NCBI GenBank assembly: GCA_026004195.1
Contig: BPIQ01000001.1
Location: 525,871 to 589,870, forward strand
From: Candidatus Binatia bacterium
GTDB lineage: Bacteria > Desulfobacterota > Binatia > HRBIN30 > BPIQ01
DNA: 64,000 nucleotides
Direction of reading: 5' to 3'
Shown here one piece after another: positions 3,293 to 54,468 of the stretch. The notes beneath the pieces were generated by a model. The model made no database searches. It was not told the origin of the DNA and saw nothing but the letters and a program-made list of their open reading frames with translations. Position 1 is the stretch's first letter; every line of letters starts with the position of its first letter. The position numbers and the translations under genes were made by a program.

Positions 3293-4693
3293 TCAGGCGG
3301 ACGCCTTGCTTTTGTTCTTGCCCCGGTACTCGCTCGGACGCAAGCCGTGGGCCTTGAGCTTGCGGTGCAACGTCGCCTGATCCACGGCCGCGTGGCGTGC
3401 ACCCCGACTGACGGCGCCGCCGAACTTCTCGAGCAGATGCTCGAGATACCGGCGTTCCGCGTCCCGGAGGTACGCCCGGAGCGGCAAGGCGAAATTCCCG
3501 TCGTTCGCCAGCGCTGCCGGCGGGCCGTCGTCGCGGTCCTCGGGCAGGTCCACGTCCTCGATCGCGTTGCCCCGCGCGCGCAGAAGAGCCCGTTCGAGCA
3601 CGTTGAAGAGCTCGCGCACGTTGCCCGGCCAGGAATAGCGGAGCATCTTCGCGAGCGCCCGGTCCGAGACGTGGCGGATCCCCTTTTCTTTCGCGAAGGG
3701 ATGGTGGTTCAGGAAATTCGCGGCCAGCAGCGGAATGTCCTCGGGACGCTCGCGGAGCGGGGGAATCCGGACGGGGACCACGTTGATGCGGTAGTAGAAG
3801 TCCTCTCGCATTTGTCCGGCTCGTACCGCGCTCTCGAGGTCTCGGTTGCTCGCGGCGACGACGCGCATGTCCACGGGAATTCGTCGGTTGCCACCGAGCC
3901 GCTCGACGGCCCTCTCTTCGAGGACCCGCAGCAGCTTGGCTTGCATGCTGAGGGGCATGCTTTCCACCTCGTCGAGGAAGAGCGTCCCCCCGCTCGCCCA
4001 CTCGATCTTCCCCACCCTCTCCCCGGTCGCCCCCGTGAAGGCTCCCCGCTCGTAGCCGAAAAGCTCGCTTTCCATCAACTGCTCCGGCAGAGCGGCGCAG
4101 TTGACGGCCACGAAGCGACCGCCCCGGCGTTTCCCCTGGTAGTGGAGTGCGCGGGCGACGAGCTCTTTGCCGGTGCCGGATTCGCCCGTGACGAGGACCG
4201 TGAGATCGCTGTCGGCCAGCAGCCGCACCGTCGCGAAGATCTCGAGCATCGCGCGGTTCCGCGACACCATGTTCGCGAAGGAGTGCTCTTCGAGCTGACG
4301 GCGGAGAAACTGGACCTCGTCCTCGAGCCGGCGCCGCTCGAGGACCCTCTCGGCGGCGAGCAGGATCTCTTCCTTCTCGAACGGCTTGGTCACGTAGTCG
4401 CTCGCCCCCTGCCGGATCGCCTCCACGGCGCCGCGGATGCTGCCGTGGCCGGTGATCATGACGATGTCCATCCACGGCGCCCGGGATCGGAGTTCCCGCA
4501 TGAGAGCCACGCCGTCCATGCCCGGAAGTTTCAGGTCCACGACGGCCAGGTCGAACCTCTCCCGCGACACGAGCTCCTTCGCCGGCTCCGGAGCATAGGC
4601 CGCGGCGGCCTCGTAACCCGCCTCCGTACAGAAGGACACGACCTGTTCGCAGATGAGGGGATCGTCGTCCACGACCAGGATGCGGGCCTTCAC
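3293..4693 (-). CDS. Sigma-54-dependent response regulator (NtrC family)
   Basis: 466 aa from a GTG start that overlaps the upstream kinase-like stop as GTGA, which implies translational coupling. The receiver domain has the Asp pair near residues 9-11, phospho-acceptor Asp53 in VVDLKLPGMDG, and Lys in YVTKPF. The AAA+ domain carries GESGTGKE, an intact sigma-54-contacting GAFTGA loop (YERGAFTGATGE), Walker B LFLDEVESM and RIPPLRERPEDI. The C-terminus is a Fis-like helix-turn-helix ending ATLHRKLKAHGL. It should activate -24/-12 promoters when phosphorylated. The layout (kinase, this regulator, then ExeA-like ATPase) resembles PrsK/PrsR-type envelope loci, but that parallel is inference. Confidence 0.93.
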   Translation of the reverse strand: MKARILVVDDDPLICEQVVSFCTEAGYEAAAAYAPEPAKELVSRERFDLAVVDLKLPGMDGVALMRELRSRAPWMDIVMITGHGSIRGAVEAIRQGASDYVTKPFEKEEILLAAERVLERRRLEDEVQFLRRQLEEHSFANMVSRNRAMLEIFATVRLLADSDLTVLVTGESGTGKELVARALHYQGKRRGGRFVAVNCAALPEQLMESELFGYERGAFTGATGERVGKIEWASGGTLFLDEVESMPLSMQAKLLRVLEERAVERLGGNRRIPVDMRVVAASNRDLESAVRAGQMREDFYYRINVVPVRIPPLRERPEDIPLLAANFLNHHPFAKEKGIRHVSDRALAKMLRYSWPGNVRELFNVLERALLRARGNAIEDVDLPEDRDDGPPAALANDGNFALPLRAYLRDAERRYLEHLLEKFGGAVSRGARHAAVDQATLHRKLKAHGLRPSEYRGKNKSKASA

Positions 4694-5343
4694 GGACCTG
4701 CCTCCGAAAGCGGGAGTCTGAGCGTCCACGCCTCGCCTTCTCCTTCGGCGGAGCGCACCAGGTTGCCCCCGTGGGACTCCACGATTTTCTCCGCGACGGC
4801 CCAGGCGAGTCGCATCGGAGCCACCACGCTGCCGAGGGAAACACGGAGACACAACCACGAGCCGCCGTCCGGCCCGGACGACGACGTGGCTTTCGCCTCG
4901 AGCGTCCCGGCCTCACCGGGCCGCACGAAGCGCCCGAGCAGCGCGAAGGCGTGACTCAAGCGTCCCGAGTCCACCTGCAACGTCTTGTTCTCGACCGAGC
5001 CGTCGCACTCGAGCCGCAAGGAAGGGAGAGCAGCCGACGCGCTCCGTACCACCGCCAGCGCCGGAACGCAGCGCAGGTCGAGCGGGAGCGGAGACACGTA
5101 GTCGAAAAGCAGCCGGAACGTCTCCTCGAGCGAAGCGACCGTCTCCCCGACGGGAGGCAGCCCTTCGCCTTCCGCCTTGCGGCAAAAAAAGTGGAGCCGG
5201 TGGAAAAGATTCCCGAGAGCGTGCTCCGCTTCGGCGAGCACGGCCGGAGAAAGCACCACGAGCACGGTGGCCTCGTCCGACGGATCCTTGGTCGGCTCTT
5301 CCAATCCGAGATCTCCGGAAGGTTCCCGTGGGTCGGCGGACAC
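4690..5343 (-). CDS. Short, sensor-less histidine-kinase-like protein
   Basis: 217 aa, GTG start. I chose this start because a promoter-like TTGAAA-17-GATAAG lies 28-56 nt upstream and the frame further upstream is only antisense to the divergent gene. It lacks a sensor domain, PAS domain or membrane helix. A helical region around EHALGNLFHRLHFF could be a dimerisation/phosphoacceptor helix, but the usual H-E-x-x-N/T-P context is missing. The C-terminus looks like the last part of a HATPase fold (LAWAVAEKIVESHGGNL) without clear N and G1 boxes. It is coupled to the sigma-54 regulator by GTGA, so it is probably its partner: a divergent kinase, phosphatase or phosphotransfer protein. Confidence 0.65.
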   Translation of the reverse strand: MSADPREPSGDLGLEEPTKDPSDEATVLVVLSPAVLAEAEHALGNLFHRLHFFCRKAEGEGLPPVGETVASLEETFRLLFDYVSPLPLDLRCVPALAVVRSASAALPSLRLECDGSVENKTLQVDSGRLSHAFALLGRFVRPGEAGTLEAKATSSSGPDGGSWLCLRVSLGSVVAPMRLAWAVAEKIVESHGGNLVRSAEGEGEAWTLRLPLSEAGP

Positions 5344-5370
5344 GTGGCCGGTACTCCGTCCCACGCAAGC

Positions 5371-5399
5371 CTTATCCCGTAGCCCCCGCGGTTTTTCAA
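5371..5399 (-). promoter_or_regulatory. Sigma-70-type promoter for the kinase-like/regulator/ExeA operon
   Basis: Read on the minus strand: TTGAAA (5394-5399), 17-nt spacer, GATAAG (5371-5376). The predicted transcript would start near 5364, about 20 nt before the GTG at 5343. It lies back to back with the promoter at 5413-5442. Confidence 0.5.
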
Positions 5400-5412
5400 G
5401 CGCACGACTTCG

Positions 5413-5442
5413 TTGACAGCATCGCAACGAACGAAGTAATAA
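5413..5442 (+). promoter_or_regulatory. Sigma-70-type promoter for the AAA+/kinase chimera gene
   Basis: Consensus TTGACA (5413-5418), 18-nt spacer, TAATAA (5437-5442). The predicted start near 5449 gives a leader of about 28 nt before the GTG at 5477. Confidence 0.6.
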
Positions 5443-5476
5443 GAGGGCACGCGCCGGGGGTCGACCGGGGGACGTT

Positions 5477-7162
5477 GTGGAGTTGCGCAAGGCGTTGCTG
5501 ATCGCGGATTCGCCCGAGCTCGAAGAAACGCTTCGAATCGTGCTCGGCGACCTGATACCGCTACGGCGCGTCCCCCCCGATCGATTCGACGTCTCCGAGC
5601 TCGATTCCGAGACGCTCGTGCTCGTCGACGAGCGGTGCGGAGCGCGGCCCGCCCGCACGGGAGCCTGCACGATCCGGCTCGGGGTCCCCGAAGGTGCCAC
5701 GCCGAGCGAAGCGGGGGTTGCCCTGCCCTTCCCGTTCGAGCCCGACGCTCTACGACGAGCCGTGGAGAAACTTCTCCGCGCTCCCGCACCGGGCCCCGCG
5801 CAAGGCTCGCGGTTTCTCTCCTACCCCTTTTTGCCCGAAGCCGCCGCGCAGGTGGCCCGCAAGGCCGTTTCCACCGGCTTGCCGCTCTACGTCTCGGGAG
5901 AGGCGGGAACCGGGAAAAGCCGGCTGGCCCGGGCTATCCACGAAAGCCGCGGGGGCGGCTACCTCCACGTGCTCGACCCGGAGGAGAAAGAGCCGCTCGC
6001 CGGACTGCCCTTATCGTCCGTCCCCGACGGAAGCAAAATCACGCTCGTCGTGGAAGGCGTGGGCCGTCTCTCCCGGGAAGCCCGGAACTTTCTTTCCACC
6101 GTGCTCGAGACGGGCCGACTCCGACGCGATTCGCACTCCTGGGAAACACAGCTCGTCTGCATCGACGGCGCCCCGCCCGAGGCGCACGCCCGGAGCCTGC
6201 CGAAAGAGCTCTTCTACCGAATCCAGACCCTCAAGCTCCACCTCCCGCCCCTGCGCGAGCGTCCGGAGGACATCCCGGATCTGGCCCGTGCGGTGGCCGC
6301 CGACATCGCCGACCGGTTGGGGCTTCCGCCCGTCGAGTTCACGGACTCGGCACTCGAGCGTCTCCGGAACTATCTCTGGTTCGGGAACCTGGCCGAGCTC
6401 GAGAGCGTGCTCGCCCGCACGATCGCCCTCGGACCGAGCCGGCGGATCGACCGGGACGACCTCGCCTTCGGCTACGCGCCCCTTCTGCCGAGGATCGTTC
6501 GCGACGACCGGCCGGCCGTCCCCGACGAAGCCACCAGGCCGCCGGCGGCGCTTTCGAACGGACTCGACGGAATCATCCAGGAGCTGGCGCACGAGTTCCG
6601 GAATCCGATGGTCACGATCAAGACCTTCGCGCAGCACCTCGAGCACCTCGAGGACGGAAACCCGGGCGAGGAACAGCTCGTGCGACTGACCGAAGAAGCC
6701 GTGGCCCGAATGGATCGCGTCCTGGAGAACCTCGTGCAGTTCACTCGCTTTTCCGACCCGGTACCGCAACCCACCGCCCTCGCCTCTCTCGTGCAAACCG
6801 CGCTCGAGCGTCTGGCTCCGGAGTTCTCCGAGCGGCAGGTACGGGTCGAGTTCGCGCCGGATGCGCAGGAGGTTCGGGTCGATCCCGCGCAGGCCGTCTA
6901 CGCTTTCGAGAACGTCCTTCGGGTAGCGTTGCGCGACGCCGCGGACCGCGACGTCCGCTTGCGTGTCTCGGGCCCGTCGGTCGAGGTCGAGTACACCGAC
7001 GGTCGTCGGGCCCTCGATCGTCTTCTGTCGGGTTCGGGCCCGTCGACGCCGCTCGGTCTCGTCTTCGCCGAAAAGCTCGTGCGCCGCAACGGCGGGACCG
7101 TGGGGGTCGAGCGCTCCGACGGAGGTAAGGACCGGGTCAAGATCACGGTTCGGCTTCCCTGA
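5477..7162 (+). CDS. Chimeric regulator: pseudo-receiver, degenerate sigma-54-type AAA+, histidine kinase
   Basis: 561 aa, GTG start. Residues 1-100 resemble a receiver but lack the acidic pocket and a clear phospho-Asp. Residues ~115-335 form an enhancer-binding-protein-like AAA+ domain: Walker A GEAGTGKS (141-148), KLHLPPLRERPEDIPDLA and the lid WFGNLAELESVLARTI. The GAFTGA loop is absent and Walker B is VVEGVG instead of the usual LDE. Residues ~362-425 are a HisKA domain with His372 in ELAHEFRNPMVTIKTF. A weak HATPase-like region follows (ENVLRVALRDA; PLGLVFAEKLVRRNGG). The HisKA call is firm; ATPase and kinase activity are uncertain. The next gene, 38 nt away, is a sigma-54 response regulator and the likely partner. 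I know of no named family with this order. Confidence 0.8.
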   Translation: MELRKALLIADSPELEETLRIVLGDLIPLRRVPPDRFDVSELDSETLVLVDERCGARPARTGACTIRLGVPEGATPSEAGVALPFPFEPDALRRAVEKLLRAPAPGPAQGSRFLSYPFLPEAAAQVARKAVSTGLPLYVSGEAGTGKSRLARAIHESRGGGYLHVLDPEEKEPLAGLPLSSVPDGSKITLVVEGVGRLSREARNFLSTVLETGRLRRDSHSWETQLVCIDGAPPEAHARSLPKELFYRIQTLKLHLPPLRERPEDIPDLARAVAADIADRLGLPPVEFTDSALERLRNYLWFGNLAELESVLARTIALGPSRRIDRDDLAFGYAPLLPRIVRDDRPAVPDEATRPPAALSNGLDGIIQELAHEFRNPMVTIKTFAQHLEHLEDGNPGEEQLVRLTEEAVARMDRVLENLVQFTRFSDPVPQPTALASLVQTALERLAPEFSERQVRVEFAPDAQEVRVDPAQAVYAFENVLRVALRDAADRDVRLRVSGPSVEVEYTDGRRALDRLLSGSGPSTPLGLVFAEKLVRRNGGTVGVERSDGGKDRVKITVRLP

Positions 7163-7200: not shown

Positions 7201-8637
7201 ATGCACAAGGCAAAAGTCCTGATCGTGGACGACGAGCTGAGCGTCCGCGAGTCGCTCCGCATGGTGCTCAAGCAGAAATTCGAACCCGTTCCGGCGGCGA
7301 GCGGCGAGGAAGCCCTGGCCGTCCTCTCGCGAGAGGACATACCGGTCGTTCTGCTCGACATCCTCATGCCGGGAATGGACGGGATCGAGGTGCTCGAAAA
7401 GATCCGCTCGCTCAGGCCCGCCACCCAGGTCGTCATGGTGACGGCGACCAAGACGGTCAAGACGGCCGTCCAGGCCATGAAGCTCGGCGCCGCCGACTAC
7501 GTCACGAAACCGTTCGACGTGGACGAGCTCGAGCTGATCGTCGAGCGCGCGCTGCGGCAGTGGCAGCTCCTGCAGGAAGTCGAGGAACTGCGGGACCAGG
7601 TGGGGCGACGTTATCGCTTCGAGAACATCGTCGCGCACTCGGGCAAGATGCAGGCGATCCTCAAGACGGTCTCCATGGTGGCCCCGCTCAAGACCACCGT
7701 CCTGCTCACCGGGGAGAGCGGGACGGGCAAGGAGGTCATCGCCCGAGCCCTCCATTACAACAGCCCCCGCGCCAAACGGAACTTCGTGGTCATCAACTGC
7801 GCCGCGATCCCCGAACAGCTTCTGGAAAGCGAGCTTTTCGGGCACGAGCGCGGGGCGTTCACGGACGCCCACGCCAAAAAGCTCGGCCAGTTCGAGCACG
7901 CGCACCAGGGCACGATCTTTCTCGACGAGATCGGAGAAATGAGCCCGGCACTCCAGGCCAAATTGCTGCGCGTGCTCGAACAGGGCACGTTCACGCGCGT
8001 GGGTGGGGACCACCCCGTGCAGGTCGACGTCCGGGTCGTGGCAGCCACCAACCGGGACCTCGCGCGCGCCATCGAGGAAGGCACGTTCCGCGCGGACCTC
8101 TACTACCGCCTCAACGTGGTTTCCATCCACCTCCCCCCGCTGCGCGAGCGGCGCGAGGACATCGCCCCGCTCATCCGCCACTTCCTCGACCAGAAATCCC
8201 GCGAACTCGGCGTCGAGCCGAAAACCTTCGCTCCCGAAAGCCTCGACCTCCTGCTCCAGTACTCCTGGCCCGGGAACGTGCGCGAGCTGGAAAACTTGAT
8301 CGAACGCGTTCTCGTCCTTTCCCCCGGCCCCGTGATCGGGCCTTCCGACCTGCCCGAGTACGTCGTCCGGGGCCCCCAGCGCATCCATCCGGCGCAACAG
8401 TGCGTCCTGCGCGGCGAGATGAGCCTGGCCGAAGCGGTGGAAAAGTTCGAAGGAGAACTGATCCGCGCCGCGCTGGCCCAGACGAACTACAACCAGACGC
8501 GCGCCGCGGAGCTCCTCGGTACCACGCGTCGCATCCTGAAGTACAAGATGGACAAGCTCGGACTGACCCAGCAGCCCGAAGCGCGCGACGAGGACCGGGA
8601 GGAGGCGGTGGAAGCCCCGCAGGACCAGAGCTCCTAG
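7201..8637 (+). CDS. Sigma-54-dependent response regulator with GAFTDA loop
   Basis: 478 aa; the ATG follows a strong GGAGGAGGAGG ribosome-binding site. The receiver has phospho-acceptor Asp53 (LLDILMPGMDG) and Lys in YVTKPFD. The AAA+ domain has GESGTGKE, Walker [10 protein letters not shown] and [12 protein letters not shown]. The sigma-54-contacting loop reads GAFTDA instead of GAFTGA. The Fis-type helix-turn-helix is near the C-terminus (NQTRAAELLGTTRRILKYK), followed by an acidic tail. It sits directly behind the AAA+/kinase chimera, its likely partner, and ends 101 nt before a -24/-12 promoter, which makes that promoter a plausible target. The family call is firm; how well the variant loop engages sigma-54 is unknown. 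Confidence 0.92.
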   Translation: MHKAKVLIVDDELSVRESLRMVLKQKFEPVPAASGEEALAVLSREDIPVVLLDILMPGMDGIEVLEKIRSLRPATQVVMVTATKTVKTAVQAMKLGAADYVTKPFDVDELELIVERALRQWQLLQEVEELRDQVGRRYRFENIVAHSGKMQAILKTVSMVAPLKTTVLLTGESGTGKEVIARALHYNSPRAKRNFVVINCAAIPEQLLESELFGHERGAFTDAHAKKLGQFEHAHQGTIFLDEIGEMSPALQAKLLRVLEQGTFTRVGGDHPVQVDVRVVAATNRDLARAIEEGTFRADLYYRLNVVSIHLPPLRERREDIAPLIRHFLDQKSRELGVEPKTFAPESLDLLLQYSWPGNVRELENLIERVLVLSPGPVIGPSDLPEYVVRGPQRIHPAQQCVLRGEMSLAEAVEKFEGELIRAALAQTNYNQTRAAELLGTTRRILKYKMDKLGLTQQPEARDEDREEAVEAPQDQSS

Positions 8638-8807: not shown

Positions 8808-9908
8808 ATGCCGGAGCCCGGAACCTTGCTGATCGTGGACGACGAGCGCGGGCCGATGGAGTCCCTGCGGATGATCTTCAAGCCCTACTACAAGATTTTC
8901 ACCGCGGACAGCGGAGCCCGGGCGCTCGAAATCGTGCAGCGAGAGCCCATCGACGTGGTGACGCTGGATCTCCGCATGCCGGGAATGTCCGGCATCGAAG
9001 TGATGCAGGAAATCAAGAGTCGGGACCCCGACATCGAAGTCATCATCGTGACGGGCTACAGCTCCCTCGAAACCGCGATCCGGGGGCTCCGGTATCGCGC
9101 GTTCGACTACATCTCGAAGCCTTTCGACGTCCACGACATCATGGACCTGGTCGAGCGCGCACTCGCGCAGCGACGAAGTCGCTTGCGGCTTCGCAAGGCG
9201 AAAGAAGACTTCCTCGCCAACCTCTCGCACGAACTTCGCACGCCGCTCAGCGCCATCATCGGTTACAGCGATATCCTGAGCGAAGAACTGCAGCGCCAAC
9301 TGAGCCCCGACCTGCGACAGGCTCTCGAGAGAATCCAGGCGAACTCCCAGGAACTGCTGCAACTCATCGAAAACGTCCTGTTCCTGAACTCGCTCGAGGG
9401 CGGCGACGTCGGAGCGCGCATCGAGATGGTCGACGTCCGAGCCCTGGCCGAACGCGTGGTCCTGCGTTTCCAGCCGGCAGCCGCGAAAAAGGGCATCGAA
9501 CTCGCCGTCCAGGGAGCGGCTTCGGGGCTTCCCTTCCCCACCGACCCGGGACACTTCGAACGACTCCTCGGCGCGCTGCTCGACAACGCCGTCAAGTTCA
9601 GCGACCGGGGCCCTGTCGTCGTCCGGCTCGAACGGCAGTCGAACGGCGACCTCTGGCTGCAGGTCGTGGACTCGGGCATCGGGATGACCCGGGAAGAACT
9701 CGAACAGGTCGTCCAGGGCCTCTCCCAGGCGGATCCTTCGAACACCCGCCGCTACCGGGGACTCGGGCTCGGACTTCGCACGGCCAACCGACTGGCGGAG
9801 CTTCTCGGAGGAGCGCTCCACATCCAGAGCGAAAAGGGCCGCGGCACCGTCGCGAGCGTCCACCTTCCCCTCCGCGTCGCCCAGGATGTCCGCGCGACCT
9901 CCCATTGA
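8808..9908 (+). CDS. Receiver-histidine kinase hybrid
   Basis: 366 aa; ATG with AGGGGG five bases upstream. The N-terminal receiver has phospho-acceptor Asp54 (TLDLRMPGMSG) and Lys in YISKPFD. A short linker leads to HisKA with His141 (FLANLSHELRTPLSAIIGY) and a HATPase domain with N box LLDNAVKF, G1 VVDSGIGM and G2 GLGLGLRTANRLAE. There is no membrane segment, so it is a cytosolic receiver-first kinase that can be driven by another kinase and pass phosphate on. Its gene carries its own sigma-54 promoter just after a sigma-54 activator gene, suggesting a cascade. Its output partner is not identified in the window. Confidence 0.9.
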   Translation: MPEPGTLLIVDDERGPMESLRMIFKPYYKIFTADSGARALEIVQREPIDVVTLDLRMPGMSGIEVMQEIKSRDPDIEVIIVTGYSSLETAIRGLRYRAFDYISKPFDVHDIMDLVERALAQRRSRLRLRKAKEDFLANLSHELRTPLSAIIGYSDILSEELQRQLSPDLRQALERIQANSQELLQLIENVLFLNSLEGGDVGARIEMVDVRALAERVVLRFQPAAAKKGIELAVQGAASGLPFPTDPGHFERLLGALLDNAVKFSDRGPVVVRLERQSNGDLWLQVVDSGIGMTREELEQVVQGLSQADPSNTRRYRGLGLGLRTANRLAELLGGALHIQSEKGRGTVASVHLPLRVAQDVRATSH

Positions 9909-10560
9909 GCCGAGCCGGACGAGCGAACCGCGGATTCTCGTCTGTCTCGACTGCCTCTCGGCGGAGGTCGCCGGGGGAGCTCCCGACGAAGCGGTGGAGG
10001 ATTTTCGGGCACTCCACGCCGGCCACGTGCTCGAGCCCGGCATTCCCCGGGGTCCGGTCCTGACTTCGGGGCCCCTGTGGGACCCGGCGAGCCCGACCTT
10101 CCAGGAAATCGAAGCCGCCGGCCGAACCTGGGTGTTGCGGTCCGAGCGCGCCTCGATCGAGGAACCCAGGCGGTTTTCATTGACAGCGGCGCGCATCGAG
10201 CGGGACCCGCCGCTCGTGGAAGTCGAAGCGGCCCACCTCCTCGCGGTCTTGGACCGTGCCTTTTACCCGCAGACGTTCCCCGAGCGGAAGGCACGCAAGG
10301 TCCTGCGTGTCCTCGAAGAAACCCTCGCCCGGACACCGCCGGACGAGCTGCTACCGAGTCACGACTGCCCCGAGGATGCCGAAACGAGCTACGCCTCCCT
10401 TCCGGAGCATCTCTGGCGGCGCGTTCGGTCCGGGCTTCTCGGCGAGCTCGACCCGTCCGAGATCGAGCGCGTGAGAGAAATCCTCTTCGGAAGGGCGAAC
10501 GGCCTTCCGTTTTTCGTCGAACTCCGGACTCGCTTCCGCGTCGAGCCCTCGGTTGACTGA
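9886..10560 (+). CDS. Uncharacterised protein (224 aa)
   Basis: I do not recognise this protein. The ATG lies within the last 23 nt of the kinase gene, and its stop overlaps the TTG start of cofG, so it bridges the signalling block and the F420 operon in one transcript. It has no signal peptide or membrane helix. The sequence is acidic and helical, begins with a short strand ILVCLDCLS and has a central ARIERDPPLVEVEAAHLLAVLD segment. Tight overlaps on both sides and no competing reading frame support it being real; function is unknown. Confidence 0.6.
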   Translation: MSARPPIEPSRTSEPRILVCLDCLSAEVAGGAPDEAVEDFRALHAGHVLEPGIPRGPVLTSGPLWDPASPTFQEIEAAGRTWVLRSERASIEEPRRFSLTAARIERDPPLVEVEAAHLLAVLDRAFYPQTFPERKARKVLRVLEETLARTPPDELLPSHDCPEDAETSYASLPEHLWRRVRSGLLGELDPSEIERVREILFGRANGLPFFVELRTRFRVEPSVD

Positions 10561-11806
10561 CCCGCCCGGCTTCTCTATAAGCCGCGACGGGTGCCTCGTG
10601 TCTTTCTTCCCCTCCGACGCGGCCGAGTTGCAACGAAGCTTGGGTTCGGTCCGGGCCGAAATCGCCTCGGTACTCGAACGAGCTCTCCGAGAGATCCCGC
10701 CGACGCAAGAAGAAGCCCTTCTTCTCCTCCGACACGCGGCGCGACATCCCGCCCCCCTTTTGACGACGGCCCGGCTGCTCCGCGACCGGCACAAGGGTAG
10801 GACGATCACCTACTCGCCCAAGGTTTTCCTGCCCCTCACGAACCTCTGCCGGGACTACTGCTCTTACTGCACGTTCCGGAAAGACCCCCGGGATCCGGGC
10901 GCGTGGACCATGCTGCCGGAAGAAGTTCGCGACTGGAGTCGCAAGGGGAAGCAGGCGGGCTGCATCGAAGCGCTCTTCTGTCTCGGGGATCGCCCCGAGC
11001 GTGCCTTCCGCGAGTACCGGGAAACCCTCGCCGTACTCGGTCACCGGTCGACGCCCGAATACCTGGTCGCCGCCTGCCGGATCGCACTCGACGAAGGGCT
11101 TCTGCCCCACACGAACGCCGGGATCCTCCGGAAAGACGAGATGCGGGAGCTCAAGTCCTGCAACGTGAGCCTGGGACTCATGCTCGAGAACGCGAGCCCG
11201 AGGTTGCGCCTGCCCGGGCAAGCTCACCACCACGCGCCGGACAAGGACCCCGCGCTGCGGGTACGGATGATCGAAGAAGCAGGAGAGCTCCGGATCCCGT
11301 TCACGACGGGGATCCTCCTCGGCATCGGCGAGACCCTGCCCGAACGCGTCGAAAGCCTCTACCTCCTCCGAGACCTGCAGCGGTCCTACGGGCACATCCA
11401 GGAAATCATCGTACAGAACTTCCGGGCGAAGCCGGCCACCCGCATGGCCCGGGCTCCCGAACCCGAGACGTGGGAAGTGGCGGCAACGGCCGCCCTTTGC
11501 CGTCTCCTCCTGCCGGACGCGAACATCCAGGTGCCCCCCAACCTGAACCCCCACGACCACCGGCTGCTTCTCGCCGCGGGCATCAACGACTGGGGCGGGA
11601 TTTCCCCCGTCACGCTCGACTACGTGAACCCGGAAGCGCCCTGGCCGCTCGTGGCGTCGCTGGCTCGGACGTGCGCGGAACTCGGCTACGCCCTCCGCCC
11701 GCGCCTTCCCGTTTACCCCGAGTACCTTCGCTTTCCCGGTTTCGTCGACGAACCTCTCCGCCGGCGGGCCCTCGAACTGGCCCGCGAAAAGGGGGTGGCT
11801 CTATGA
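10553..11806 (+). CDS. cofG: CofG, FO synthase radical-SAM subunit 1
   Basis: 417 aa from TTG; a GTG at 10598 is an alternative start. The radical-SAM [4Fe-4S] motif is C99-x3-C103-x2-C106 in NLCRDYCSYCTF, preceded by TYSPKVFLPLT, diagnostic for CofG. CofG works with CofH to make the 5-deazaflavin FO from 5-amino-6-ribitylaminouracil and tyrosine, the chromophore step of coenzyme F420. The stop overlaps cofH as ATGA. It is stand-alone, not fused to CofH as in actinobacterial FbiC. Confidence 0.93.
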   Translation: MTDPPGFSISRDGCLVSFFPSDAAELQRSLGSVRAEIASVLERALREIPPTQEEALLLLRHAARHPAPLLTTARLLRDRHKGRTITYSPKVFLPLTNLCRDYCSYCTFRKDPRDPGAWTMLPEEVRDWSRKGKQAGCIEALFCLGDRPERAFREYRETLAVLGHRSTPEYLVAACRIALDEGLLPHTNAGILRKDEMRELKSCNVSLGLMLENASPRLRLPGQAHHHAPDKDPALRVRMIEEAGELRIPFTTGILLGIGETLPERVESLYLLRDLQRSYGHIQEIIVQNFRAKPATRMARAPEPETWEVAATAALCRLLLPDANIQVPPNLNPHDHRLLLAAGINDWGGISPVTLDYVNPEAPWPLVASLARTCAELGYALRPRLPVYPEYLRFPGFVDEPLRRRALELAREKGVAL

Positions 11807-13038
11807 ACGTCGCAGCACTGCGTTCTTTCGTCCTCGACGCACCCGACGTGGAAACCGCACTCGGCCGCGCTTCGCGTCGGGTCCGTTCGGTCCTCGAGCG
11901 GGCGCTCGCGGGCCGGAGGCCGAGCGTGGAGGAAATCGAGGTCCTGCTCGGGACCGAGGGCGAGGATCTCAGGGCCCTTCTACGGGTCGCCGACGAGATC
12001 CGCGCCACCGACGTCGGTCCCGAAGTCACCTACGTCGTCAACCGCAACATCAACTTCACGAACGTGTGCTTCGTCGGCTGCCAGTTCTGCGCCTTCGCCC
12101 GGCATCGGCGCGACCCCGACGCGCGCACCGACTCCCTCGAACGCGTTCTCGAGAAAGTCGCCGAAGCGGTGGACCGCGGAGCCACCGAGATTTGCATGCA
12201 AGGCGGGATCAACCCCGACCTGGACCCTTACCACTACCGCGACCTGCTCGTGGCCATCAAACGGCGCTTCCCGCGGATCCACATCCACGCTTTCTCCCCG
12301 ATGGAGATTCTCTACGGCGCGCGCCGCACCGGACTTTCTTTCCGCGACTACCTCGCCATGCTGCGCGAGGCCGGGCTCGACACGATCCCGGGGACCGCGG
12401 CGGAAATTCTCGACGACGAAGTTCGCGAGATCCTGAGCCACAAGAAGGTCGACGTCCGGACCTGGGTGGAGATCGTCACGACCGCGCACGAGCTCGGTAT
12501 CCCGTCGACCTCGACGATCATGTACGGGCACATCGAAACTCCGGCCCACGTCGCCCGCCACCTCGACCTGTTGCGGCGCATCCAGGAAAGAACCGGCGGG
12601 TTCACCGAACTCGTGCCCCTGCGCTTCATCCACACGTACACGGCCCTCTACCAGAAGGGCCTCGTCGATCCGCCGCCCAAGGGCCTCGTCGACCTCCGCA
12701 TGTACGGTGTGTGCCGCGTGGCCATGCGGGGGCTCGTCCAGAACCTCCAGACCTCGTGGGTCAAACTCGGAATCCCCCTCGCCCAGCTCTCCCTCGCGGC
12801 GGGTTGCAACGACTTCGGCGGCACCCTCATGGAAGAACAGATCTCCAAGTCGGCGGGTGCCGACGCGGGCGAATACCTGCCCGAGGAAGAAATCCGGAAA
12901 CTCGTCGCCGAGATGGGGAGAATTCCCGTACAACGGACCACCACCTATGGCCGTATCGAAAGACCGTCCGAGGATCGCAGTGCTGGCCGGGGGGGTCGGA
13001 GCAGCGCGGTTCTTGAGGGGGCTCTTTTCGCTCGTTGA
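11803..13038 (+). CDS. cofH: CofH, FO synthase radical-SAM subunit 2
   Basis: 411 aa; the ATG is within ATGA shared with the cofG stop. The radical-SAM motif is C89-x3-C93-x2-C96 (NVCFVGCQFCAF); TEICMQGGINPDL and IHAFSPMEI are typical of CofH and the related MqnC/MqnE group. CofH joins the tyrosine-derived fragment to the pyrimidine before CofG closes the deazaflavin. The reading frame runs 92 nt into cofD, giving a C-terminal tail (about 30 residues) beyond the usual family end; the tail may be non-essential. F420-operon context excludes a menaquinone role. Confidence 0.93.
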   Translation: MNVAALRSFVLDAPDVETALGRASRRVRSVLERALAGRRPSVEEIEVLLGTEGEDLRALLRVADEIRATDVGPEVTYVVNRNINFTNVCFVGCQFCAFARHRRDPDARTDSLERVLEKVAEAVDRGATEICMQGGINPDLDPYHYRDLLVAIKRRFPRIHIHAFSPMEILYGARRTGLSFRDYLAMLREAGLDTIPGTAAEILDDEVREILSHKKVDVRTWVEIVTTAHELGIPSTSTIMYGHIETPAHVARHLDLLRRIQERTGGFTELVPLRFIHTYTALYQKGLVDPPPKGLVDLRMYGVCRVAMRGLVQNLQTSWVKLGIPLAQLSLAAGCNDFGGTLMEEQISKSAGADAGEYLPEEEIRKLVAEMGRIPVQRTTTYGRIERPSEDRSAGRGGRSSAVLEGALFAR

Positions 13039-13900
13039 CCCACGCGACGCGACGATCATCGTCAACACCGCGGACGACGACACCTTCTTCGGCCTCCACG
13101 TCTCCCCGGACCTCGACACCGTCACCTACACCCTGGCCGGTCGAGCTCCCCTCCGGCGGGGGTGGGGAATTCGCGGGGACACGTTCTTCTGCCTCCGAGC
13201 CCTCGCCCGGTTCTACGGAAGCCCCTGGTTCCGGCTCGGGGACCGGGACCTGGCGACGAATCTTTTTCGCACCGAACGACTCCGGGCCGGGCTCACGCTC
13301 GCCGAAGTCACGCACCGCATCGCGCGAGCCTTCGGGGTGCGGGCGACCGTCCTCCCGATGACGAACGACCGCGTCCGCACCTTCGTCACGACGGAAGGAC
13401 GGGGCCCGCTTCCTTTCCAGGAATACCTCGTTCGCCACCGAGCCCGAGGCAAGGTCCGCAAGATCGAGTTCCGGGGCTCGCGCAGCGCGCGGCCCCTGCC
13501 CGAGGTGCTGCGCGCGATCGGCGAGGCCGACGCGGTTCTCCTTCCGCCGAGCAACCCGCTGGTCAGCATCGGGCCCATTCTCTCGCTCCGCGGCGTTCGT
13601 CGCGCCTTGCGGGAGTGCCGGGCACGCGTGCTCGGCATCAGTCCCCTCGTCCGCGGCCGTGCGCTGAAGGGTCCCGCCCACCGCATGCTCGCGGGACTCG
13701 GCCACGAGGTTTCGCCCGTCGGGGTCGCGCGACTCTACGCGGATTTTCTCGACGTCTTCTTCCTGGACGAAGAGGACGAAGCCGAGGCTCCCCGGGTCGC
13801 CGAGCTCGGAATCCGCCCCGTCGTGGCCCCGATCCGCATCGCGAGCCCGCGTCGCGCCCGCGAGCTGGCGCGACGGGTCCTCGAGGAGCTCTCGCGGTGA
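12947..13900 (+). CDS. cofD: CofD, 2-phospho-L-lactate transferase (F420-0 or dehydro-F420-0 synthase)
   Basis: 317 aa. The N-terminus has the family motif VLAGGVGAARFLRG, then VNTADDDTFFGLHVSPDLDTV. The middle has the conserved LPPSNPLVSIGPIL segment. It transfers a phospholactate-type group from the GDP-activated donor onto FO. The donor-making enzyme CofC is not in the window. The start is 92 nt inside cofH; the next in-frame starts would truncate the nucleotide-binding motif, so the long overlap looks genuine. It is coupled to cofE through GTGA. Confidence 0.94.
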   Translation: MAVSKDRPRIAVLAGGVGAARFLRGLFSLVDPRDATIIVNTADDDTFFGLHVSPDLDTVTYTLAGRAPLRRGWGIRGDTFFCLRALARFYGSPWFRLGDRDLATNLFRTERLRAGLTLAEVTHRIARAFGVRATVLPMTNDRVRTFVTTEGRGPLPFQEYLVRHRARGKVRKIEFRGSRSARPLPEVLRAIGEADAVLLPPSNPLVSIGPILSLRGVRRALRECRARVLGISPLVRGRALKGPAHRMLAGLGHEVSPVGVARLYADFLDVFFLDEEDEAEAPRVAELGIRPVVAPIRIASPRRARELARRVLEELSR

Positions 13901-14649
13901 AAGAGCTGCGACTCTTTCCGCTCTCGGGTCTTCCTCCCGTCGTGCCCGGAACCGACCTCGGAGGACTTTTGCTCGACGCCCTCGATCGCTCGGGAATCGA
14001 GCCCGAGGACGGCGATATCGTGGTCGTCTGCCAGAAAGTCGTCTCGAAGGCCGAAGGGCGCGTCGTGCGGCTCGCGGAGGTCGAGCCTTCGGAGTTCGCC
14101 CGCATCCTCGCGCGCGAGATCGGCAAGGACGCCCGCATTCTCGAAGTCGTACTCCGGGAGACCCGCCGCGTCGTGCGGATGGACCGGGGCCACCTGATCG
14201 TGGAAACCCACCACGGCTGGGTCTGCGCCAACGCGGGAGTGGACGAATCCAACGCGCCCGAGTCCGGCTCCGTGGTCCTCCTTCCGGAGGACGCCGACGA
14301 GTCCGCCCGCCGGATTCGGGATCGGGTGCGGGAGGCGTCGGGCAAGAAGGTGGCCGTCGTCGTCACGGACACCTTCGGGCGCCCCTGGCGCGAGGGTCTC
14401 GTCGAGTTCGCCATCGGCGTCGCTGGCATCGCCCCCCTTCTGGACCTCCGACGGCGGCGAGATTTCACGGGCCGCCCGCTCGAGCACACCGTGGTGGCGC
14501 AGGTGGACGCCATCGCCGCAGCGGCGGGCCTCCTCATGCGCAAAGACGCCGGTATCCCCGCGGTCCTCCTCCGGGGGTACGAGTTCCGTCCGGCCGAAGA
14601 AAGCGCTCGGCGGCTCGTGCGCAGGGCCGAGGAAGACCTTTTCCGCTGA
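13897..14649 (+). CDS. cofE: CofE, coenzyme F420-0:L-glutamate ligase
   Basis: 250 aa, GTG start sharing GTGA with the cofD stop. Family features are [19 protein letters not shown], the glutamate-rich [18 protein letters not shown], and [14 protein letters not shown]. It adds gamma-linked glutamates to F420-0 using GTP. Only the ligase domain is present; the nitroreductase-like extension of actinobacterial FbiB is absent. It is the last gene of the F420 block. F420-dependent enzymes themselves are not encoded in this window. Confidence 0.95.
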
Positions 14650-19264: not shown

Positions 19265-21565
19265 TCAGCTCTGCGAGCGGAGGATGAGGCGGGCTTCGGG
19301 ACCCGTCTGGCCCGCGACGTTCCGCAGGCGTACGACGAGCAGCGTGTCGCCCCGCGGAAATTGAAGCGGCTTCGCGATCGTCGCACAGAACTGCACACGG
19401 CTGAGCGGGTTCACGAAGCGGAATTCCCCGTCGGGGTGCAGCACGCACGCCTCCGAGGCCGGCCGTCCCACGGGCTCGCCCCGCCCGTTCACGAAACGAC
19501 AGGCGAAGTCGTTGATGGCATCCGTGATGGTTTGCGTCGGGGCGAACGACGGCGGCGAGACGGCAGGGACGCCGCCGAAGTTGTCGGGCGGATCGTTGTC
19601 GCAGACGGCCGGACTCCCGTTCCCGAGCGGACGGTCGGCCACGATCTGCAGGTCGGGACGGGTGAGAGGATCTCCCGGAACGTGTCGAAACGTGCTGTTC
19701 CCCACGGGAACTCCGTCCGGTCCGGGCCGCCCCTCGACCACGACGATGAAACCGAAGCCCAGGATCCGCTCGTAGATCGGCGTCCCGTCCGCAGCGAATC
19801 CGACGGGTTCTACCTTCACGCCCTGTGCGTCCAGGATCCCGAAAAAGCTCACCCGGGGGCCCGGCGGCTCGGTCGGCGTGGCGGTGGGCGTGATCGTAGG
19901 CGTGCGGGTGATCGTGGGCGTGCGGCTCGGCGTCCGGGTCCAGGTGGGCGTGGCCGTCCGGCTCGGGGTTCTCGTCGCCGTGGGCGTCCGCGTCACGCTC
20001 GGAGTCGAGGTGACGGTGGCGGTCCGCGAGGGCGTGCGGGTGGCGGTCGGCGTCCGTGTCGGGGTGGGTGTGGGTGTGCGGGAAGGCGTACGCGTGGTGG
20101 TGGGCGTGCGCGTGAAGGAAGGAGTGGCGGAAGGCGTGCGCGTCGGGCTCGGCGTCGGAGTGCGCGTACGGGAAGGCGTCGGCGTGGGAGTGCGTGTCGG
20201 GAGAGGCGAGCCGGTGAAGGTGCGGGTCGGCGTAGAGGACGGAGTCGCGGTGCGTGTGGGGGATGACGTCGGGGTCCGCGTCGGAGGGAGCGTGCCCGTA
20301 GGCGTGAAGCTCGGTGGCGGGGAAGGAGTGAAGGTCGGGATTCGGGTGGGCGTGGAGGTCGGCCCGAACGGCGTCCGCGTGGGGGTCGAGGAGGGTCCCG
20401 GGCTTCCGGTTACCGAGGGTGTTCGGGTCGGCGTCCTCGAGCTCGTCGGTGTCCGGGTAGCGTCCGGGCCCGTGCCGGTGGGGGACGGAGTTACTGTAAC
20501 CCTGGCCGTACTCGTGCGGGTCGCCGTGCGGGTCCGTGTCGGAGTGGCGGTCCGGACCACCGTGGTCCCCTCCGAGGGGGACGGGGTGAACGTGGGAGAG
20601 CGCGTGGGGAATCGGGGCGAAGTCCCGGTAGGAGTGGGGCTCGCCAGCGGGCTCGGCGTGAACGTGGGTACCCGGGAGGGAGTCGGGGTGGCGGGCTTCG
20701 TCGGCGTTCGCGTGGGGGTCGACGAGGGAACCGGAGTCTCGGTCGGCGTCGGCGTTTCCGTTGCCGTCGGAAGCAGCGGCAAACCGGCGCGGACGAGGAT
20801 TTGCCGGACTTCACCCTCCTCCCCGTCCTCGTCCACGAGCCGCACCGTGAGGAGGACCTCCGCCCTGGGGAAGGCAAAGAGCGAGTCCACGAGTGCGCAG
20901 AACTGCACCCGTGCATCCGGCACGACGAAGCCGTTTCGACCGAACGGATCGAGCGTGCAGGCTACCGCCGGGTTGGTCGCCACCCGAAACCGACAGCCGA
21001 AGTCGTTCAGCGCCCGGTCGATCTCGGGACCGCCCCCGAAGCGCGGGGGATCGACGGCCGGTATGCCCCCCACGCAAGGCTGCGGGTCACCGTCACCCAG
21101 AGGATGGCTGCTCACGATACGGAGGTCGGGACGGCCTCCGGAGACGAACACATCCTGGCCGACGGGCCGCCCTCCCGGGCCCGGTACGGCTTCCACGACC
21201 AGCTTGAAGCCGATTCCGCTCGGCCGCTGGTAGACCGGAATCCCGGCGGCCGTCGTGGCGAACGGCGCGAGAACCGTCCCGTCCGCCGCGGCCAGGCCGA
21301 AAAAAACGATGCGCGGCCCGGGCTCGGGCGGAGGAAACAGCGCCCCGAGAAGCGCCACGAGATCCGCGGCGCCGACGCGACCGTCCCGGTTCGCGTCGGC
21401 CGAATCGCACTCGGCGCCCCGGAAAACCGCCGAAATCAGGGAAGGTAAGTCGTCCGGGGCGAGCCTGGAGTCGCAGATGGCTTCGTCGTGCGCCGCCTCT
21501 GCCGGCCCGGTTGCCAGGAGGAAGAGGAGGCCGACCCCCAGCGCCACGTCTCGCCAAGCTCGCAT
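19265..21565 (-). CDS. Secreted dockerin-like protein with duplicated domain and Thr/Pro linker
   Basis: 766 aa. A signal peptide ([20 protein letters not shown], cleavage near AEA) precedes a dockerin-like calcium-binding module (about 30-78, [17 protein letters not shown]). A first beta-rich domain (about 85-275) and a second (about 600-766) are clear homologues: GPRIVFFGL versus [21 protein letters not shown] versus [21 protein letters not shown] versus AINDFACRF, and DARVQFCA versus LSRVQFCA. They are separated by ~300 residues of TPT/RTP repeats. The long linker suggests a stalked surface or extracellular protein, probably glycosylated. No cohesin was found. The domain itself is unrecognised. 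Confidence 0.82.
19865..20770 (-). repeat. Low-complexity Thr/Pro-rich coding repeat
   Basis: About 300 codons of imperfect TPT, RTP and TPS units inside the secreted protein gene. The opposite strand reads as a valine/glycine-rich open frame, which is an artefact of this composition. Such arrays can change length by recombination or slippage. Confidence 0.85.
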
Positions 21566-53330: not shown

Positions 53331-54468
53331 CTAGTTCGCTCCCATCCCGAGGAGCTGGATCACGTCGATGTTCACGATGGGCGCATCTTCGGCAATCACG
53401 GCGGAAACAAGAGCGCCCGGTCCGTCCGCCTGCGTCCAGTTCGAGCAGTCGAAAGCCTCGCCTTCTCGCGAGGCGCTCGTCACTGACGTCCCCGCTCTCG
53501 GGTTTTCGATGGTGGCGTCGATCCGGCTCGTCGAGAAGACGAACTGCTCGGCTGGCGGATAGGTCTGCGCCATGCACTCCTCCACCGTCGGAGCGGAGTT
53601 CCCGTCGAGCTGCACCGTGCTGACCATCACGTCGAGCACGGCATTTCCGGGCCCACTCGGCTCTCCCGTCACCTCGAAGACGGTGGGACCTCCGGGATCG
53701 GCCCCGTTGCTGTTCCTGCTGGCCCGTACGTCGGTTACGCTTCCACCGTCACAGTCGACGAACCCCGTGCTGCCCGCGGCTTCGAACTTCATGCAAAGCC
53801 CCAGGCCGCCGAGCGGGATGCCGATGGCCAGATAACCGTCCTCGGCAAGCGCAAGCTGCGCCACTCCGTTCTCGTCCGGCGTGCCAGCCGTAAGGCGCAG
53901 GATTCCCGTCATGTTGCTTCCCACATCGAGGAAGCCGGCGGCCGAAGTGAGAAAGACCGTCTTCATGTTGGCCGGGTTTTTCACGATCGGGAACTCCCTC
54001 TCGCCGAGCGCTGCCGGCGCCCCCTCGCAGAGACACTCGGCGCTGCAGGTCTCGCCCTCGGCGCAGTCGGCGTCGGTCTCGCATTCCTCGCCCCCCTCGA
54101 CCACACCGTTGCCGCAAACCGCCGCGGCCTCGCAGAGGCACTCGGCCGTGCAGGTCTCGCCTTCGGCGCAGTCGGCGTCGGTCTCGCACTCCTCGCCCTC
54201 CTCGACGACAGCGTTGCCGCAAACCGGGCCGACGACTTCCGTAGGCGTCGCCGTCACGGTCGCCGTGGGAGGCGCCGGTGTCTCCGTGTGCGTCGCCGTC
54301 GGGGGCGGTGGCGGAGAGGTGGGCGTGGCTGTCGGAGCCGCACGGCTGCGTCGGCGTCGAAGTCGCCACGGGCGGCTGTTCTTCTTCGTCGTCGTCGCCG
54401 TTGCAAGCCGCCAGAAAGACCAGGCTACCGGAGACGAGCAAAAGCCCCGCTACGCGCCAGAATCGCAT
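53331..54468 (-). CDS. Lipoprotein with Myxococcus-type Cys-rich repeats and apparent frameshift
   Basis: ATG 54468 has GGAGGG upstream and opens a lipoprotein signal (MRFWRVAGLLLVSGS, lipobox FLAAC). After the Asp/Glu run and STPTQP the frame is lost; the next frame from about 54340 continues as AAPTATPTSPPPPP, a Thr/Pro linker. Omitting one base near 54339-54344 (CCGTGCGG) restores a continuous protein, and the 1138-nt span is one over a multiple of three. Two 35-aa Cys repeats follow (VCGNGVVEGGEEC, six Cys each), then a C-terminal domain shared with the protein at 51918-52929 (LALAEDGYLAIGIP, FVDCDGG). It follows the GT-C gene by 3 nt and ends at a terminator, so it is probably the operon's last gene. 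Confidence 0.72.
54016..54225 (-). repeat. Two tandem 105-nt Cys-rich repeat units
   Basis: Units 54121-54225 and 54016-54120, nearly identical, each encoding 35 residues with six Cys. They match the myxobacterial disulfide-repeat type. Confidence 0.85.

Follow-up and report, generated by a model that had tools for sequence, protein, structure and literature searches.

Two-component proteins that have lost part of their catalytic equipment are already known, both as degenerate kinases with an intact DHp domain (Spo0B, ChpT, and PhyT) and as pseudo-kinases (DivL and RetS), and pseudo-receivers have been described as well (PMC12632262). PhyT of Sphingomonas melonis (formerly PhyP), Spo0B of Bacillus subtilis, and ChpT of Caulobacter each combine a kinase-derived DHp domain that carries a phosphorylatable His with a degenerate ATPase and act on response regulators (PMC5898713). 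PhyP illustrates how readily phosphate removal and phosphate transfer are mistaken for one another: initially taken for a phosphatase, it later proved to be a phosphotransferase, and no removal of phosphate from PhyR was found in vitro (PMC5898713). DivL and RetS have the kinase fold without ordinary kinase function. Bacterial enhancer-binding proteins (bEBPs) of the NtrC kind, including NtrC1, FlrC, FleQ, and VpsR, have a receiver-like part followed by a domain of the AAA+ fold.

The stretch of DNA analyzed here (the window; 64,000 nucleotides from a Candidatus Binatia bacterium) holds an open reading frame at 5477-7162, CHIM, in which these designs meet. CHIM has the receiver-like and AAA+ order and the AAA+ fold of the bEBPs, and the Spo0B/ChpT/PhyT type of anatomy, a DHp domain with its His followed by a degenerate CA domain, and it shares with DivL and RetS a kinase fold that is probably without ordinary kinase function. 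The open reading frame is a real gene. Reading from its sequence and from its relatives, we give a probability of about one half to the proposal that CHIM is a catalytically dead accessory protein dedicated to the adjacent regulator (also named NtrC1 below), where it would dock on the receiver and control its phosphate, probably as a brake. The features of the locus are as follows:

3293..4693, minus strand: NtrC2, an ordinary regulator of the sigma-54-activator type with GAFTGA, after HKd
4690..5304, minus strand: HKd, about 204 aa, divergent from CHIM, start uncertain, with weak C-terminal similarity to kinase models
5477..7162, plus strand: CHIM, GTG start, 561 aa (ORF translation, Pfam, family alignments, and AlphaFold models with fold matches)
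5477..5779, plus strand: receiver-like N-terminus of CHIM, about residues 1-101 (alignment by eye; residues 2-331 align with the VpsR structure)
5813..6472, plus strand: pseudo-AAA+ part and lid of CHIM, about residues 113-332 (Pfam, alignments, and a fold match to the FlrC, FleQ, and NtrC1 AAA+ domains)
6563..6766, plus strand: DHp/HisKA domain of CHIM, residues 363-430 (Pfam HisKA, E 1.5e-7; H-box AHEFRNP)
6767..7159, plus strand: degenerate HATPase_c (CA) domain of CHIM, residues 431-561 (alignments; CA fold in the model)
7201..8637, plus strand: NtrC1, receiver, AAA+, and Fis HTH domains (Pfam), with GAFTDA replacing GAFTGA and with the phospho-acceptor Asp53
8808..9908, plus strand: receiver-kinase hybrid, with Response_reg, HisKA, and HATPase_c above the Pfam cut-off and the H, N, G1, and G2 motifs intact

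Domain make-up of CHIM

Three domains of the CHIM protein lie above the Pfam cut-off (Sigma54_activ_2, residues 129-259; AAA_lid_14, residues 260-330; HisKA, residues 367-425), and HATPase_c (residues 474-560) is a weak match below it (E 0.015). An HTH_8 match is absent from CHIM in the same Pfam search that detects HTH_8 in the 7201-8637 protein, and the place that the DNA-binding HTH takes in sigma-54 activators is occupied in CHIM by the HisKA-HATPase module. An earlier note on this DNA had described an AAA+ domain set before a HisKA domain, and this order is borne out by Pfam and by the layout of 55 family members; the alignments show, besides, the receiver-like N-terminus and the degenerate HATPase_c, which the note had not mentioned. 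The order had also been called the reverse of normal signalling. In LvrB, a hybrid response regulator of Leptospira, a receiver stands ahead of the kinase module, and the order therefore has a precedent; to our knowledge, LvrB has no AAA+ part.

The AAA+ part belongs to the Sigma54_activat kind by both Pfam and fold match (Z 17-18), and its Walker A motif reads GEAGTGKS. The loss of the GAFTGA loop and the degenerate Walker B, both claimed previously, are confirmed by translation and alignment: the loop is absent from the protein and from the family alignment, and the Walker B site reads VVEG, not a hydrophobic run plus DE, with the residues at its positions scattered across the 55 members. 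Similarly, the sensor II Arg position is Ala306 in the CHIM of the window, and the Arg is retained in 8/55 members. The AAA+ part is thus predicted to be dead as an activator, without the parts for ATP hydrolysis and for sigma-54 contact. In the receiver-like part, the phospho-acceptor Asp is mostly gone across the family when the alignment is inspected by eye, and the whole part is missing in about one-third of the members, L037 and L042 included; an Asp in the stretch TLVLVDERCG of CHIM may occupy the receiver phospho-site, the register of the alignment columns being uncertain there.

The phospho-acceptor of the DHp domain is His372 (codon 6590-6592, from the ORF translation and the family alignment). 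As the earlier note had said, it is intact, and together with Asn376 and Pro377 it is invariant in 55/55 members, a conservation that is somewhat over-stated because the members were gathered by similarity search, which favours a conserved H-box. An acidic residue after the H-box His is required for kinase action, and the Asn at H+4 is a position with a recognized role in the H-box; in CHIM the residue after the His varies (E in 40 members, R in 7, D in 4, Q in 3, and K in 1; n = 55). In the CA domain, the G1 Asp (DxGxG) is found in 0/53 CHIM members and the second G2 glycine (GxGxGL) in 1/53, and the second Asn of the N-box in 6/53 (0/37 within the class of the window and 6/16 outside it), whereas 30/30 control kinases have each of the three; the controls are 28 kinases that neighbour CHIM and two from the window, and L061, which meets a contig end, and L068, which contains a run of N, are left out of the CHIM counts. 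Because the ATP-site motifs of HATPase_c are lost, CHIM is most likely a pseudo-kinase that has kept its DHp domain intact, rather than a kinase, and the word "kinase" in the earlier note is not supported.

The same note had taken CHIM for an ATP-sensing or inhibitory kinase, in which the AAA+ part would bind ATP and gate an active kinase. The Walker A Lys is present in the CHIM of the window and in 11/13 members of its order, and ATP sensing may at best be specific to that clade; across the family the Lys is kept in only 24/55 members, so the members do not have ATP binding in common as their function, and with the ATP-site motifs of the kinase domain lost this reading is very improbable. An inhibitory role of CHIM is possible.

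The structure prediction that had been suggested recovered both the activator AAA+ fold and the DHp-CA fold. With a mean pLDDT of 61, the AlphaFold model of the whole protein is weak and was used for domain folds only; over about 215 residues its AAA+ part resembles the AAA+ domains of the described activators FlrC, FleQ, and NtrC1 (Z 17-18, with an rmsd of about 3), and over 205 residues the model also matches the kinase core of ZraS (Z 16.3, rmsd 6.8). The C-terminal part folded alone reaches a pLDDT of 77 and matches whole DHp-CA cores, including those of HK853, DivL (Z 17.1, 197 residues, rmsd 4.1), and RetS (Z 15.6), with the LvrB structure also among its fold matches, and active kinases fit it as well as DivL and RetS do. 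Spo0B and ChpT are absent among the fold matches listed for CHIM, which excludes nothing.

Upstream of the gene, a sigma-70 scan of 5250-5520 reported no promoter. A TTGACA-18-TAATAA arrangement at 5413-5442 (plus strand), 5' of CHIM, was spotted by eye, and the scan is silent on it.

Spread of the family and its gene neighbourhood

A search with the single CHIM protein matched 34/58 genomes at E<=1e-20 (the window genome counted), and a 24-row CHIM profile matched 31/297 genomes of the phylum at E<=1e-60, 27 of which were taken as real CHIM (6 in the class of the window, including the window genome, and 21 outside it). At the low end of the profile matches, L097-L099 are ordinary activators and not CHIM, and the match in G077, which covers the same short range and has no locus sequence behind it, was not counted; L033, a supposed homologue outside the class, is an ordinary kinase-regulator pair. 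Five further CHIM loci came from metagenome assemblies labelled "Deltaproteobacteria" or "Proteobacteria". Gene context was compared in 54 loci, with genes called by our own codon-usage script: the 5 metagenome loci, 33 regions from the single-protein search minus one duplicate (L069, left out as a duplicate of L031), and 17 regions from the profile search, 16 of which lie outside the class of the window, out of 21 such genomes. These loci together with the window give the 55 CHIM members.

All 55 members have the AAA-HisKA-HATPase order in common. Judged by these alignments, the arrangement is far beyond chance, with the same order in many genomes, and the family as sampled reaches across several classes of one phylum with a strict gene order. 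A frameshift or mis-join of the AAA+ and HisKA parts is excluded by the layout shared among the 55 members and by the matches in 34/58 genomes; since the order is conserved in so many members, CHIM is not a mis-join. A CHIM-NtrC1 fusion at L068 is an artefact of the run of N. The mean column identity over the 55 members is 0.76 for residues 368-387, against 0.34 for the CA domain, 0.39 for the AAA part, and 0.28 for the receiver part. In the closest pairs, dN lies far under dS for the AAA, DHp, and CA parts; for example, the pair L040/L044 has dS/dN of 0.31/0.043 (AAA), 0.22/0.015 (DHp), and 0.18/0.021 (CA). The values were computed for five pairs, and the receiver value of L037/L042 is meaningless, as both are without that part. 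With dN well below dS, the dead domains appear to be still under purifying selection. The loss of several catalytic motifs in two domains would be expected of a decaying relic or an annotation artefact (frameshift or mis-join), but the common layout of 55 members with invariant H, N, and P, the low dN of all three parts in the closest pairs, and the strict gene order leave next to no room for such an explanation.

The link to the 7201-8637 regulator drawn in the earlier note is well supported, as an NtrC1 orthologue lies directly downstream of CHIM in 50/54 loci. The remaining four are L061 (contig end), L047 (NtrC1 in two frames), L068 (run of N), and L106, where a close NtrC1 is missing. Among the 19 genomes of the class without a CHIM match, 15 are also without an NtrC1 orthologue at E<=1e-130, and the other four have a diverged CHIM-like ORF beside NtrC1; one of these ORFs has His-His at the H-box, and those of L181 and L183 are cut by the locus edge. 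The phospho-acceptor Asp, the acidic pair, the Lys, and the Walker B Asp-Glu are all kept in 49/49 NtrC1 orthologues, and NtrC1 is by prediction an intact regulator. Its GAFTGA loop is altered at position 5, the second Gly, in 46/49 orthologues (D in 31, N in 14, H in 1, and G in 3). The three with Gly belong to one family (f9), as do two more Gly-type NtrC1 from class genomes without a CHIM match. In the window genome, which has one sigma-54 gene, the change at position 5 is found in NtrC1 only among 11 full activators. NorR variants with Asp or Asn at the corresponding residue are constitutive, escaping repression by their regulatory domain yet still activating transcription (PMC2941729), and GAFTDA is already known in an activator of Desulfovibrio vulgaris (PMC4641369). 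By analogy with NorR, the GAFT(D/N)A loop of NtrC1 may have escaped the usual self-repression.

Other genes near CHIM are more variable. The receiver-kinase hybrid at 8808-9908 is a possible candidate for the phosphoryl donor; in L115, the one out-of-class locus that was run through Pfam, a receiver-HD-GYP protein follows NtrC1 instead of the hybrid. On the other side, HKd gives no match at E<=1 in a Pfam search, and its H and the Asn at +4 are kept in 9/9 sequences; from these residues HKd looks like a second pseudo-kinase, and it precedes NtrC2. ChpT and Spo0B are of about the same size as HKd. Behind the receiver-kinase gene, a 224-aa protein with no Pfam match (9886-10560, plus strand) is weakly conserved in many relatives, and the genes at 10553-14649 (plus strand), which we take to be those of coenzyme F420 biosynthesis (cofG, cofH, a cofD-like frame, and cofE), remain near CHIM-NtrC1 in many class members. 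The window also contains low-complexity ORFs at 19265-19996 and 53331-54257 (minus strand), which are threonine-proline-rich or of cysteine-repeat type.

A canonical kinase is located directly upstream of CHIM in at least 28/54 loci by the script, with two more upstream kinases in L042 and L062 and another in L114 that is cut by the contig end. The order of the window is without a kinase adjacent to CHIM, and in its place most loci there have a divergent unit that encodes NtrC2, an ExeA-like ATPase, and, in many cases, HKd. At H+7, H+11, and H+12, which are presumably docking positions of the DHp domain, CHIM has the same residue as the adjacent kinase in 25/28, 27/28, and 22/28 pairs, respectively. 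The V/T/F pattern at these positions is found at 1/20 other readable H-box places in the window genome, that of an orphan kinase (presumably a GAF-type sensor kinase, from the make-up of the neighbours), which stands far from CHIM with no regulator gene alongside. This orphan kinase is the best match in the window genome to the adjacent kinase of L028 (233 bits, the next match having 140 bits) and falls, with 95/93 support, into one group with all 28 kinases that adjoin CHIM, and kinases similar to it with the same box occur in 6/14 genomes of the order. In the stretch read for it (L163), homology to relatives of 722-749 aa is split over two frames at about 9015-9030, and the reading frame looks broken near the start of that stretch, by error or in nature; because the gene looks frameshifted, the source of phosphate is uncertain in the window genome.

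The common DHp pattern of CHIM and the kinase may stem from shared ancestry and not from the same partner. It also bears on the proposal that CHIM is an allosteric partner of a sensor kinase, which would pair with it through the DHp domain or read the phosphate on NtrC1 and report back, in the manner of DivL and RetS. The DHp helices of CHIM and of the adjacent kinase are alike, DivL and RetS are among the fold matches, and DivL reverses the flow by sensing DivK-phosphate (PMC4211667). However, the model fits active kinases just as well, the His that is invariant in CHIM is a Tyr in DivL, and in the order of the window the kinase is not beside CHIM, and we regard this proposal as distinctly improbable.

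Possible action of CHIM on NtrC1

In the preferred reading of CHIM as a brake, its DHp domain would dock on the NtrC1 receiver, like that of the true kinase, and would remove phosphate from Asp53, either as a phosphatase or as a sink by back-transfer. The AAA-like part would probably add affinity by packing on the AAA+ domains of NtrC1, and the phosphate would come from the canonical kinase, which adjoins CHIM in most other lineages and is distant in the window genome. A brake is favoured because the phosphatase action of a DHp domain needs no CA domain, as reported for EnvZ (cited in PMC5231405), and because the kinase with the docking pattern of CHIM could phosphorylate NtrC1 itself. The locus L106, with no NtrC1 next to CHIM, counts against a fixed pairing of the two.

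The least certain step is the net removal of phosphate as opposed to its relay by CHIM. The conserved residues would equally suit a phosphorelay, and the H-box residues alone cannot decide between the two. As a relay intermediate like Spo0B, ChpT, or PhyT, CHIM would take phosphate on His372 from a receiver or the canonical kinase and pass it to Asp53 of NtrC1, which would be activated. Its anatomy is that of the known degenerate-kinase phosphotransferases, with an intact DHp His and a dead CA domain, the receiver-kinase hybrid or receiver-HD-GYP protein that often follows NtrC1 could supply an intermediate receiver, and PhyT offers a precedent (PMC5898713). Nevertheless, the receiver-like part of CHIM is mostly without the phospho-Asp where it is not missing altogether, and the adjacent kinase, with the same docking pattern, could phosphorylate NtrC1 directly, and we consider a relay, although it is the main competitor of the brake, rather unlikely.

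A more elaborate form of control, tentative and in our estimate unlikely, is that CHIM acts in trans with two hands. It would join or cap the AAA+ ring of NtrC1 with a part that has neither hydrolysis nor the sigma-54 loop, place its DHp domain on the receivers of the ring, and so hold NtrC1 in check in place of the regulator's own domain.

Comparison with known systems

No described fusion of an activator-type AAA+ part to a kinase-dead DHp module was found in the open-access literature searched, nor was a description of a fixed triad of kinase, CHIM, and NtrC1 found there. CHIM and the NtrC1 altered at position 5 raise the question of whether the control of a sigma-54 activator can move from its own domain to a separate pseudo-enzyme. 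Compared with bEBPs of the NtrC kind, CHIM is without GAFTGA, Walker B, and HTH and carries a kinase-type module in the place of the HTH. Compared with CHIM, PhyT, Spo0B, and ChpT have no activator-type AAA+ part in front, as they are described in PMC5898713, and PhyT further differs in being membrane-anchored and in its HRxxN motif, where CHIM has HEFRN in HisKA (PMC5898713). Similarly, DivL has Tyr at the site of the His (PMC4211667), which CHIM retains in all 55 members. Set beside these proteins, CHIM would enlarge the small set of two-component pseudo-kinases.
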